This document shows positions 14,351 through 17,851 of a stretch of 64,000 nucleotides of DNA, piece after piece. Each line of letters opens with the position of its first letter. Positions within the stretch are counted from its first letter, which is position 1. The stretch is from NCBI RefSeq assembly GCF_029871235.1, contig NZ_SSOM01000067.1:62001-126000 (forward strand). The letters are read 5' to 3'. Made by a program: the position numbers and the translations under genes. The DNA comes from Pseudomonas sp. BN411. Lineage in GTDB: Bacteria; Pseudomonadota; Gammaproteobacteria; Pseudomonadales; Pseudomonadaceae. The notes below the pieces were generated by a model, which saw only the letters and a program-made list of their open reading frames with translations, ran no database searches and was not told the DNA's origin.

Positions 14351-16387
14351 CTAGGCTTCGCTCCCGCACGCCGCCTGTATCGCCGTCAAGGCGATGGTGT
14401 GGATGATGTCGTCCACCAACACATTGCGCGGCAGGTCGTTCACCGGTTTGCGCAGGCCTTGCAGCATCAGGCCGCCGCTCACCACGGGGTGGCTCTGCTG
14501 GGCGTCCTTGTAGGCGGCATCGCCGGTGGCGAGGTCGGGGAAGACGAAGACCGTGGTGCTGCCCTCCCGGGCGGCGGTGGGGTAGGGCAGGGGGCCTTCG
14601 ATGGTCAGCTCGGGGCGGGCGGCGCGGGCCAGGCGGGCGGCTTCGCGGACCTTGGCCAGCGCAGTCTCATCGAGCGAATCGCAGATCATCGTCACCCGCG
14701 GGACGATCCCTAAGGCCTCGGCCGAATCCGCGCTTTGCAGGGCGATTTCCGCCAGGTCGTTGGCATCGGGCTCGGGGTTCACCGCGCAGTCGCCGTAGAC
14801 CACCACCTGTTCCGGCAACAGCATCAGGTAGACCGAGGAGGCGATGCGGTAGCCGGGCGCCGACTTGATCAGCTGCAGAGCGGGGCGGATGGTGTTGGCG
14901 GTGGGGTGGATGGCGCCGGACACCAGGCCGTCCACCTCATCCAGCGCCAGCATCATGGTGCCCAGGACGACGTTGTCTTCCAGTTGGGCGGTCGCCATCG
15001 GCGCGTTCAGGCTCTTGTTCTGCCGCAGGTCCACCATGGGCTGCACGTAGCGTTCACGGACACGTTCCGGATCGAGGATTTCCAGGCCTTCGGGCAACTC
15101 GATGCCATGGGCGCGGGCCACCGCGTGCACGTCCTCCGGCCGGGCCAGCAGTACGCAATGGGCGATGCCACGAGCCTGGCAGGCGGCGGCTGCCTGCACG
15201 GTGCGCGGCTCGCTGCCTTCGGGCAGGACGATGCGCTTGCCGGCGAGTTGCGCCTGCTGGATCAGGCGATGGCGGAAGGCTGGCGGCGACAGGCGCTGGC
15301 TCGCGCTGGGGGCGCCACAACGGGCGCGCAGCCAGTCGAGGTCCAGGTTGCGGGCGACGAATTCGGTGACCTTCTCCGCGCGCTCGCGGTCGTCCACCGG
15401 GATTTCCTTGTTCATCCGGTTCAGGTTGGTCGCCGTGTCGTAGGTGCCGGTGGCCACGCCCAGTACCGGCAGGCCGCCCTGCAGGGCGCCACGGCAGAGT
15501 TCCAGGGTGCGCGGGTCGGGCTGGATGTCGCTGGAGAGCAGCAGGCCGGCGAGCGGTACACCGTTCATGGCGGCGAGGCTGGCGGCGAGGATAATGTCGT
15601 CGCGGTCGCCCGGCGTCACCACCAGCACACCCGGCTTGAGCTGCTGCACGGTGTTGGGCACGGTGCGTGCGCAGACCACGATCTTCTGCACACGGCGCTG
15701 GTCGTAATCGCCGGCGTTGATGACCTGGGCCTGCAGCAATTCGGCTACGTCGCGGGTACGCGGCGCGTTCAGCTCATCCAGCCAGGGCACGCTGCCGAGC
15801 AGGCGGAAGTCGTCGCCGCGCAGCAGGGGCGACTGGTCCTTGAGGCGGCGGGTGAACTCTTCGTCGCGCACCTTGTTGAGGATTACCCCGAGCACCTTCG
15901 GGTCGCGCGGGCCGCCGAATTGCTGTGCCTGGATCTCCAGGCGGTCGGACAGTTCGGAGAGGCTTTCGTCTTCCGGCGCCGACACCAGGATCACATCGGC
16001 GTCGAGGCTCTTGGACAGGTGGAAGTTGATCCGCGCGGCGTAGCTGGCATGGCGGGTCGGCACCATGCCTTCGACGATCACCACGTCCTTGCCTTCGGCC
16101 GCCTGGTGGAACAGGCCGGTGATCTCATCCAGCAGTTCTTCCAGCTGGCCGTCGGCGAGCATCCGCTCGACATGGGACTGGGACAGCGGCATCGGGGGCT
16201 TCAGGCCGTGGGTGCGTGCCACCAGTTCGGTGGAGCGTTCCGGGCCGAGGTCGCCGGGGTGTGGCTGGGCCACGGGCTTGAGGAAGCCGACCTGCAGGCC
16301 AGCCAGCTCCAGGGCGCGCACCAGGCCCAGGCTGGTGGAGGTGAGGCCGACGCCGAAACCGGTCGGGGCGATGAAAAAGCAGTGCAT
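14351..16387 (-). CDS. pta: Phosphate acetyltransferase homologue with a disrupted catalytic domain
   Basis: The 678 residues follow the long Pta plan: an N-terminal CobQ-like domain (MHCFFIAPTGFGVGLTS), a DRTGG-type middle and a C-terminal PTA_PTB domain. Canonical Pta makes acetyl phosphate from acetyl-CoA. Compared from memory with E. coli Pta, the C-terminal domain has lost key parts. The SYSTG loop is replaced by MICDSLDET (about 567-575) and is ~4 residues shorter. LQYDAA reads LPYPTA (600-605). The following ~13 residues with KAPNSPVAG are deleted, and SGA.HTTA reads SGAIHPTA. The frame is fully open. It starts 22 bp after ackA in the same operon. Activity is doubtful; a retained non-catalytic role is possible. 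Confidence 0.9.
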   Translation of the reverse strand: MHCFFIAPTGFGVGLTSTSLGLVRALELAGLQVGFLKPVAQPHPGDLGPERSTELVARTHGLKPPMPLSQSHVERMLADGQLEELLDEITGLFHQAAEGKDVVIVEGMVPTRHASYAARINFHLSKSLDADVILVSAPEDESLSELSDRLEIQAQQFGGPRDPKVLGVILNKVRDEEFTRRLKDQSPLLRGDDFRLLGSVPWLDELNAPRTRDVAELLQAQVINAGDYDQRRVQKIVVCARTVPNTVQQLKPGVLVVTPGDRDDIILAASLAAMNGVPLAGLLLSSDIQPDPRTLELCRGALQGGLPVLGVATGTYDTATNLNRMNKEIPVDDRERAEKVTEFVARNLDLDWLRARCGAPSASQRLSPPAFRHRLIQQAQLAGKRIVLPEGSEPRTVQAAAACQARGIAHCVLLARPEDVHAVARAHGIELPEGLEILDPERVRERYVQPMVDLRQNKSLNAPMATAQLEDNVVLGTMMLALDEVDGLVSGAIHPTANTIRPALQLIKSAPGYRIASSVYLMLLPEQVVVYGDCAVNPEPDANDLAEIALQSADSAEALGIVPRVTMICDSLDETALAKVREAARLARAARPELTIEGPLPYPTAAREGSTTVFVFPDLATGDAAYKDAQQSHPVVSGGLMLQGLRKPVNDLPRNVLVDDIIHTIALTAIQAACGSEA

Positions 16388-16409: not shown

Positions 16410-17576
16410 TCAGGCAAGCAGGGCCAGGGTATCGAGGGCGATCTGGCGTTCTTCGTTGGTCGGTACCACCAGCACGCGCGGGTGGCCGCGCTTGTGGATG
16501 GGGCCGGCGACGCCGCGCACGCAGCGTGCATTGGCTTCGCGGTCGATGGCCAGGTTGAGCAGCTTCAGGTGATCCACCGTGCGGCTGCGCACAAGGGGTG
16601 AATTCTCGCCGATCTCGCCGGTGAAGATCAGCCCGTCCAGCTGCGGCAGCGCACAACCAACAGCGGCCAGGGTCCTGGCCAGGCGGTAGCAGAAGACTTC
16701 GATGGCCAGGGTGGCGCCGGCGTGGCCCTGGTCGCGGGCCTGTTCCAGGCTGCGCATGTCGCCGGCCAGTTCCGAGAGACCGAGCAGGCCGCTCTCCTGG
16801 CGCAGCACCTGGTCGATCTTCTCCAGGCTCCAGCCGAGGCTGCGGTGCAGTTGGGTGTAGAGGTGTGGGTCGATGTCGCCGCTGCGCCTCGCCATCACCA
16901 GATTCATGCTGGCGTCGCGGCTCTGGCCGTTGACGATGGCGCAGGTGGAACAGTGCTCGCCCAGATGGGCGGAGAGCCAGCAGCTGTCACCGAGGGAAAG
17001 CCCGGCCAGTTCGGCGGCGCGGCGGCTGACATAGCGGTGGCTGTTGCCGTGGAAGGCATAGCGGCGCAGACCGTGGTCGCGGTAGACGGCGTCCGGCAGG
17101 GCAAGGCGGTAGACGTGCTCGGGCATGCTCTGGTGGAAGGCCGTGTCGAACACCGCGACATGGGGCAGGTTCGGCAGCAGGTGCATGGCGGCGTCGATGC
17201 CCACCAGGCTGGCCGGCATCTGCTGCGGCGCCAATGGGACCAGGGCCTGCAGGCGGCGGACTACCAGGGCGTCCACTCGGCAGGCAGAGGTGAACAGCTC
17301 GCCGCCGTGCAGCACGTGGTGGCCGACACCGTGGAGCTTGCCGCCGGCGGCGCCCTGGACGATGGGCAGCAGCTGCGACAGCGCGGCGCGGTGGTCTGCG
17401 TTGGGGATCATCAGGTTGTCCTTGTCACCGCCTCGCTGCCAGCGCAATTCCGCGTCGCGGCTGCCGAGTCCGTCGGCCATGCCGTGGAGGATGAACTGAC
17501 TATGGGCTTCGTTGACCAGGGCGAAGCGCAGCGACGTCTTGCGCGCGTGGATCACCAGGATGTTGCGTGCGGGCAT
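16410..17576 (-). CDS. ackA: Acetate kinase homologue with degenerate active site
   Basis: The 388 residues align end to end with acetate kinase (P. aeruginosa and E. coli forms, from memory), but the active site is eroded. The NCGSSS-K loop reads HARKTSLR (His10 for the catalytic Asn). GHR reads GHH (His87 for Arg91 of the archaeal enzyme), APLHNP reads APQQMP and HLGNG reads HLGEH. The segment between SM and LVM is six residues short, GTR reads ARR, and TGGIGEN reads TGEIGEN. Asp144, His176, Arg231 and Glu375 are kept. Its ATG shares a base with the DUF3565 stop (TGATG), and pta follows. It probably cannot phosphorylate acetate. Confidence 0.92.
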
Positions 17577-17851
17577 CAGGTTTCCTCAGTGGACTCGGGC
17601 GCCAGGCCCTGGGCGCACCAGCCGCAGGGGAAGAGTCGACCCAGCTGGGCAGCGCGCAGTTCGGGGTCGAGCACCCAGGCGCGTGACTGCCAGGGCGGCT
17701 GGTGCCGCAAGTGCTGAGTATGGCCGCAGGAAAGCACCGCCACCCAGTGACCGTCTTCGTCTTGCCTGTAGCCGACGAGCCGGGGCCGCCTGTCAGCGTT
17801 CGGGTCGCAATCGACCGGCCGCGCGGTTAAACTTGCGCTTTCATCATTCAT
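17576..17851 (-). CDS. DUF3565-family small protein
   Basis: This 91-residue protein belongs to a family of unknown function. It contains the conserved block [19 protein letters not shown] followed by a C-terminal CGWC pair. The Cys/His pattern C-G-H..H..H with a later C-x2-C suggests a small metal site (inference). It heads the operon DUF3565-ackA-pta: its TGA overlaps the ackA ATG. Only 18 bp separate its start from the divergent slyD start. The frame stays open upstream antisense to slyD, but that part is not DUF3565-like and was left out. Confidence 0.8.

Follow-up and report, generated by a model that had tools for sequence, protein, structure and literature searches.

Eroded active sites in the acetate kinase and phosphotransacetylase of a Pseudomonas clade, held by purifying selection

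The usual view is that pseudoenzymes derive from a spare paralogue. NADH and pyruvate regulate the phosphotransacetylase (Pta) of E. coli through its N-terminal part. A PTA fold that is kept without catalysis has been described in the hybrid malic enzyme MaeB, where, according to excerpts of the paper, it serves as an acetyl-CoA sensor and where the N718D substitution abolishes acetyl-CoA binding (PMC7902834). For acetate kinase (AckA), 20 ligand positions are listed in the consulted part of a structural paper on the Salmonella enzyme (PMC3475010), while in excerpts of another paper single changes at Asn211, Gly239 or Gly331 of M. thermophila AckA bring the activity down 6- to 200-fold (PMC4390882); the roles of the residues of M. 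thermophila Pta were taken from excerpts of a third (PMC10194888). No report of a disabled AckA/Pta pair was found among open-licence papers, and the erosion of Pta beside that of AckA is a new observation.

The window (the whole 64,000-nt stretch of Pseudomonas sp. BN411 DNA that was analysed) carries an AckA/Pta pair with eroded active sites on its minus strand. The acetate kinase homologue (16410..17576, 388 aa) is homologous to the family over its full length (326 bits in a profile search with PF00871, against a cut-off of 22), exceeds the cut-off of TIGR00016 (312 against 293.4 bits), and lies in an open frame, as the initial annotation had stated. Its start overlaps by 1 nt the stop of a DUF3565 gene (17576..17851, minus strand, 91 aa), which, judging from this layout, is probably the first gene of the ackA-pta operon; the gene encodes a small protein and is possibly coupled to the operon. 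The pta gene (14351..16387, minus strand, 678 aa; PF13500, PF07085, PF01515) begins after a gap of 22 nt. Twelve other clade members have both genes, and ten of them show this same spacing, while the remaining two have 20 and 33 nt. Both proteins pass the general family models.

When the ligand positions are mapped through E. coli K-12 AckA, which we assume to share the numbering of Salmonella AckA, half of them (10 of 20) prove to be replaced in the protein encoded in the window (Asn10His, Lys17Arg, Arg91His, Val93Leu, Leu122Gln, His123Gln, Asn213Glu, Gly214His, deletion of Pro234, and Gly333Glu). Of these changes only Lys17Arg and Val93Leu are conservative, whereas none of the 20 positions varies among all 77 canonical relatives. 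The replacements touch all three nucleotide motifs and the acetate pocket, and the LOOP3 segment is lost too. The former PHOSPHATE1 motif (residues 10-17, 17526..17549) reads HARKTSLR instead of NCGSSSIK, with H10, A11, R12 and R17 fixed in all 13 species that carry the eroded form; Arg91 (E. coli numbering) has become His87 (17316..17318; His in 13/13, against Arg in 77/77 canonical sequences), and Leu122-His123 has become Gln118-Gln119 (17220..17225; Gln or Asp at 118 and Gln at 119 in 13/13). In the former PHOSPHATE2 motif, Glu207-His208 (16953..16958) stands for Asn213-Gly214, His208 being fixed in 13/13 while residue 207 is Glu, Ala, Asp or Leu; the six residues GLTPLE, including Pro234 of the acetate pocket, are deleted in all 13 species at the junction of residues 224 and 225 (16902..16907), and in the former ADENOSINE motif Glu321 (16614..16616) replaces Gly333 (Glu in 13/13, Gly in 77/77 canonical sequences). 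All these coordinates refer to the minus strand. The protein also differs at all three of the M. thermophila positions Asn211, Gly239 and Gly331. Every substitution named in the initial annotation is present (HARKTS with His10, His87, Gln119, HLGEH, the 6-residue gap at GLTPLE, and TGE), and its claim that the changes cluster at the active site is borne out by the counts, since the replacements common to all 13 species take up half of the ligand positions (10 of 20) but only 20 of the 163 other conserved columns (Fisher P = 2e-4).

The other ten ligand residues are as in the canonical relatives, including Asp150, His182, Arg243 and Glu387 (retained in the protein's own numbering are D144, H176, R231, D273, R275, N325 and E375), so that some chemistry may be left. 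Residual acetate kinase activity, weak but still of use to the cell, would fit these ten residues and the Pfam and TIGR00016 cut-offs that are passed, but it is very improbable given that ten ligand positions changed together and that the partner reaction, that of Pta, has been dismantled too, while for acetate each of the 18 congeneric genomes has at least two acetyl-CoA synthetase (Acs) genes over the family cut-off. An AlphaFold model of the eroded AckA (from 22 sequences) was too poor for use (mean pLDDT 64.5, pTM 0.45), and the spatial closeness of the new histidines therefore rests on homology and not on the model.

Among the 18 congeneric genomes, 13 have the eroded 388-aa AckA without a stop, three have a canonical 394-aa AckA (G004, G008 and G017), G009 has a canonical AckA gene in which a C run is one base short, and G010 has none; the AckA counts leave out the last two, G009 because of its frameshift. 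In G009 (L115, around 5339) the single missing C, compared to G008, splits the gene, which is either a sequencing error or a fresh loss. Carriers of the eroded form include Pseudomonas resinovorans DSM 21078, P. boanensis DB1, Pseudomonas sp. JM0905a, BN102 and BN417, a strain filed as P. taiwanensis xwS3, and Metapseudomonas furukawaii. Of the 120 AckA protein clusters listed, 10 show the eroded motifs, 109 have the canonical residue at each of the 15 positions checked, and the last one deviates at a single C-terminal position. Degeneration in this strain alone, which the initial annotation had named as the finding that would speak against it, is thus not what is seen. A sequencing or assembly error, or a lesion specific to the strain, is a negligible prospect, since nothing was found in its favour and the same changes recur in the genomes of 13 species and in 10 protein clusters from a number of sources. 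A second, canonical ackA, for which the initial annotation had proposed a search, was not found in the source genome, where a genome-wide search gave a single PF00871 match (assembly rated 100% complete).

The erosion extends to Pta, which the initial annotation had missed. Of its three domains (all on the minus strand), the N-terminal AAA_26 domain (residues 4-209, 15761..16378) is conserved, the DRTGG domain (residues 213-325, 15413..15751; 96 bits to PF07085) is hyper-constrained in the clade, and the PTA domain (residues 371-669, 14381..15277) has a dismantled CoA/catalytic site. When the residues are mapped on M. thermophila Pta by alignment, Pro653 (14429..14431, minus strand) stands in place of the catalytic Ser309 (Pro in 13 of 14 clade members), Asp623 (14519..14521, minus strand) in place of Asn279 of the acetyl pocket (Asp in 14/14), and Gln631 (14495..14497, minus strand) in place of Arg287, which is lost in 13/14 (Gln in 12, Leu in one, Arg kept in one). 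Gln244 is lost in 14/14, as is Lys257, in 13 of them together with a loop of about 13 residues; Pro296 has become Leu in 13/14, and part of the SYST segment is lost, while the other two catalytic residues, Arg310 and Asp316, are kept in all 14. Each of the mapped sites is invariant in 78 of 78 canonical sequences (G009 among them). The clade proteins measure 677-688 aa, against at least 692 in the 76 canonical sequences first aligned. These Pta counts leave out L037, which is partial, and L043, whose piece of contig has no pta, and the loci L002-L007 are counted once only, not again beside the G genomes. The window protein falls below the cut-off of the NCBI equivalog TIGR00651 (266 against 311.2 bits), although it passes another, longer equivalog model, PRK05632 (NF004167; 781 against 418). 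It is the only full match to the PTA family in the source genome, where the other PF01515 match (30 bits, Pfam cut-off 24, profile positions 104-228) lies in a 337-aa frame, presumably PlsX.

How ackA has evolved was evaluated with a codon branch model (GY94-type, F3x4, ackA+pta tree, 26 sequences; our own script and not a published program), which gave an omega of 0.063 for the background, 0.27 for the stem of the clade and 0.048 for its crown. A single common omega was rejected (2dlnL 29.4, 2 df), as was omega = 1 in the crown, i.e. a neutral clade (2dlnL 1470), while omega = 1 on the stem was rejected weakly (2dlnL 6.1). It follows that the active site changed in a burst, the product of which has since been under a constraint as tight as that on the canonical enzyme. 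The dN/dS comparison with relatives that the initial annotation had proposed thus points to purifying selection, with a crown at 0.048 and canonical sequences at 0.063. Pairwise NG86 estimates of dN/dS have a median of 0.117 over 78 clade pairs (median dS 0.34) and of 0.213 over 91 canonical pairs, and in every 50-codon window the constraint on the eroded AckA equals or exceeds that on canonical AckA. The 79 canonical proteins have 183 columns with a conservation of at least 98%. All 13 species agree with them at 133 of these columns, some species depart from them at 20, and every species does so at 30; of these 30, five are deleted and 25 hold other residues, and 15 of the 25 hold one identical new residue throughout. 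Only 46 of the 159 four-fold sites of ackA are invariant across the 13 species, so there has been time enough for the new residues to vary as well. Their conservation roughly matches that of the remainder of the protein, without exceeding it (285 of 388 residues are invariant in the clade). Neutral decay of ackA is rejected by the codon models, and the view of the initial annotation that this is a retained pseudoenzyme instead of an accidental pseudogene is supported by these models, by a frame that has stayed open in 13 species and by the many new residues that became fixed.

A slower form of decay could be imagined, in which the operon is no longer needed and the frames stay open only because pta is expressed through translation of ackA, or because misfolding is costly. 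The overlap of the ackA start with the DUF3565 stop and the 22 nt between ackA and pta would suit this, as would the loss of ackA in G010, the mild relaxation of the PTA domain of Pta, and the 14 of 248 family genomes that have neither gene. Polarity alone, however, permits missense changes to build up, yet the crown omega of ackA is no higher than the canonical one and omega = 1 is rejected; moreover, the DRTGG domain is more and not less constrained than in canonical Pta, and G010 demonstrates that pta can stay in frame after ackA has gone. We consider this decay improbable.

Within Pta, the constraint has shifted. In the clade (NG86, 13 sequences) dN/dS is 0.093 for AAA_26, 0.046 for DRTGG, 0.110 for the linker and 0.166 for the PTA domain, compared to 0.239, 0.177, 0.309 and 0.154, respectively, in canonical Pta (14 sequences), which means that DRTGG is about four times more constrained in the clade and that the gradient of constraint along the protein is reversed. 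A branch model of 30 sequences (the background including two AckA-less ones and G009) gave 0.062 for the background and 0.026 for the clade over the first 365 columns, 0.041 and 0.011 (crown) for DRTGG alone, and 0.046 and 0.068 for the PTA domain, which is thus mildly relaxed; the DRTGG values come from a restricted fit, the three-omega fit having ended at a worse likelihood (-3251.5 versus -3244.0). Positive selection on the stem of the N-terminal part of Pta was considered and rejected, the omega above 1 not being significantly different from 1 (2dlnL 1.5). The synonymous rate in DRTGG is ordinary (0.42), so the constraint acts at the protein level, and its move to DRTGG would place the retained function mainly in DRTGG and the N-terminal half of the eroded Pta. 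This might mean that only Pta matters, with its DRTGG and N-terminal domains keeping a job of their own and AckA being a stabilising subunit or a passenger. DRTGG is indeed the most constrained part, and among the 248 sampled genomes G010 and 28 others have retained Pta in the absence of AckA, but a constraint on AckA that is at least canonical in every 50-codon window is too strong for a passenger, which leaves this possibility doubtful.

The species that survive seem to represent different stages of the process. G001, the first branch of the clade, has an eroded AckA and a Pta that keeps Ser309, Arg287, Pro296 and the loop; with Ser309 and Arg287 intact there, AckA was probably rewritten before Pta, and the likely order of erosion, as read from these sequences, is AckA first and Pta second. 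In G010, nested in the clade, ackA is reduced to a scar of about 100 bp (L125:4881-4978) that holds pieces of the ackA start, the TGE region and the end, while Pta is in frame. AckA has thus been lost and Pta kept, from which it follows that the eroded AckA is dispensable and that the pair is not required in every species; the DRTGG domain of this Pta has no private change and no sign of a lost AckA interface. Another source of acetyl phosphate that would need Pta was sought and rejected, as Xsc matches over the family cut-off were found in none of the 18 genomes (weaker family matches occur in all 18) and a phosphoketolase domain in G001 only. The latter is a partial match to PF09364 (G001:C1:308803-309702, L155; 51.8 bits against a cut-off of 23.7), present in one of the 18 congeners. 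Anr boxes (at most 2 mismatches, within 900 nt), sought as a hint of lost anaerobic control, were found at none of the 6 clade loci scanned but also at only 5 of the 18 canonical loci scanned, and gave no such hint.

It could also be that both proteins are still enzymes, with other substrates: AckA with a rebuilt cleft for a different phosphoryl donor or acceptor, and Pta with another acyl donor. A burst on the stem that is followed by strong constraint fits neofunctionalisation, H10, R12, H87, Q119, H208 and E321 are fixed in 13/13 while D144, H176, R231, D273, R275, N325 and E375 remain, and in the AckA of Entamoeba changed PHOSPHATE2 and ADENOSINE loops go with the use of PPi instead of ATP (excerpts of PMC4390882). 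This is nevertheless unlikely, if conceivable, because Asn10, Arg91, His123, the acetate-pocket residues Leu122 and Pro234, and LOOP3 were all lost together, because in Pta the catalytic Ser and the Lys257 loop (13/14) as well as the acetyl-pocket Asn (14/14) are gone, and because mild relaxation of the PTA domain (0.068 versus 0.046) is unexpected for a working new acyltransferase.

With their active sites rewritten, both proteins are likely no longer working enzymes, and as selection still preserves them, they likely have a different, non-catalytic job; loss of active-site residues together with purifying selection on the protein is what marks a pseudoenzyme, and both proteins show this combination. 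Our preferred reading, which we hold tentatively, is that the residue losses shared throughout the clade under preserving selection have left a likely non-catalytic pair, in which DRTGG is a predicted metabolite sensor and AckA a predicted partner or scaffold. The residue losses are shared by 13 species for AckA and by 14 for Pta, amino-acid change was raised on the stem, strong purifying selection followed, and the constraint within Pta is reversed; we infer from this that the old activities may have been lost, that the two proteins may interact, and that a metabolite-sensing or regulatory role may have been retained. With the nucleotide motifs, the acetate pocket, the catalytic Ser and the acetyl-CoA pocket gone or altered, neither protein would carry out its old reaction, and acetate would enter by Acs instead. 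The DRTGG domain of Pta would be the likely sensor, with a PTA domain that would not sense acetyl-CoA, and the eroded AckA would likely be the partner or scaffold of Pta, where contact between the two in the clade is assumed. A more specific version, i.e. a stand-alone regulatory machine of two dead enzymes in which DRTGG would sense a metabolite and signal via an AckA with a rebuilt, histidine-rich ligand or metal site (H10, H87 and H208 with the retained H176 and D144), appears rather unlikely. Of the overall reading in the initial annotation, the retention stands, and a regulatory or binding role for AckA may be inferred; besides the erosion of Pta, it had missed the loss of AckA in one nested species and the fact that the strongest constraint lies in the DRTGG domain of Pta.

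Pta without AckA also occurs elsewhere in the family, where 205 of the 248 sampled genomes have a PF00871 match and 232 have Pta, while 29 (G010 and 28 others) have Pta without AckA and 14 have neither. In all 26 of the 28 others that were examined (G065 and G091 were left out), Ser309 of Pta is Pro, Lys257 is Leu and Asn279 is kept (L137-L149, L159-L171); Tyr282 is His in 22 of the 26, and Arg287 is kept in 13 of the first 13 Ptas checked. All but one of the 26 belong to the genus-level group g14, the exception being G137 in g9. Ser309 is kept in 7/7 AckA-bearing g14 genomes examined alike; four more g14 genomes, which have an AckA-like gene only elsewhere, have Pro at this position, and G019, without an adjacent ackA, has Ser. 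Independent erosion of the low-scoring AckAs in G187, G215, G221 and G019 was rejected, as these genes are of divergent types (36-38% identity), lie away from pta and keep NAGSSS/NCGSSS, and the AckA match of G190 is a distant relative (26%). The AckA-like genes of G187, G221 and G215 (L150, L152, L153; 36-37% identity, PHOSPHATE1 motif intact), genomes that have no ackA beside pta, are possibly re-acquired kinases.

Among 120 relatives listed (P0121-P0240), the motif is visible in 117 and reads NDLPR in all of them, including at least nine that are named P. putida, and going by the protein names the AckA-less lineage belongs with P. putida and its relatives. Pro at the catalytic Ser309 in these Ptas contrasts with an engineering paper that, in the part available, states that P. 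putida KT2440 has a functional pta (PMC7789669), the sequence of KT2440 itself lying outside the comparison. The two Pta lineages are separate in the tree (support of 99-100 for the genus and the clade, with a weak backbone), and 10 conserved Pta columns, three of which lie in DRTGG, changed in both, where 2.6 would be expected (P = 5e-5). As each lineage may be one event, the association between Ser309Pro and the loss of AckA rests on about two independent cases. The reversal of constraint between DRTGG and PTA is absent from the P. putida-type Pta (0.125 versus 0.077).

Taken together, both enzymes of a textbook pathway, each present as a single copy, appear to have been disabled where they stood, first one and then the other, after which selection kept them. 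The canonical sister species, G001 with its eroded AckA and half-eroded Pta, the crown, and G010 without AckA survive as stages, which makes for a testable natural series of an enzyme becoming something else. The automatic annotations 'acetate kinase' and 'phosphate acetyltransferase', and the metabolic models that use them, are probably wrong for this clade, and the annotation is perhaps wrong too for the P. putida-type Pta, in which the catalytic Ser is Pro.

Compared to known systems, the eroded AckA resembles canonical AckA (P. aeruginosa, E. coli) in its full-length homology (72-73% identity to three canonical congeners), its place upstream of pta and the residues of its scaffold, but differs in all three nucleotide motifs, the acetate pocket and LOOP3, which are changed or deleted. 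The eroded Pta shares its domains (PF13500-PF07085-PF01515) and operon position with three-domain Pta, but it has lost Ser309, Arg287, Asn279, Gln244, the Lys257 loop and part of SYST, and lies below TIGR00651. With the PTA domain of MaeB (as described in the excerpts of PMC7902834) it would share a PTA fold kept without catalysis, which on the side of Pta is a prediction; it is, however, not fused to an enzyme, and the equivalent of N718, placed by the N-x-x-Y-K spacing, is Asp in 14/14 clade members. Since N718D abolishes binding in MaeB, the PTA domain of the eroded Pta is probably not an acetyl-CoA sensor, and MaeB-like sensing is disfavoured by Asn279Asp in all 14. The PPi-dependent acetate kinase of Entamoeba histolytica likewise has an AckA fold with changed PHOSPHATE2 and ADENOSINE loops, but, as far as the excerpts of PMC4390882 go, it is still an acetate kinase, with another phosphoryl donor, whereas the eroded AckA has also lost residues of the acetate pocket. 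The AckA-less pseudomonads of the P. putida type, finally, have Ser309Pro in Pta and DRTGG changes that in part hit the same positions; in these, however, ackA is absent instead of disabled, and Pta keeps Asn279, Arg287 and the loop, with a PTA domain that stays constrained.
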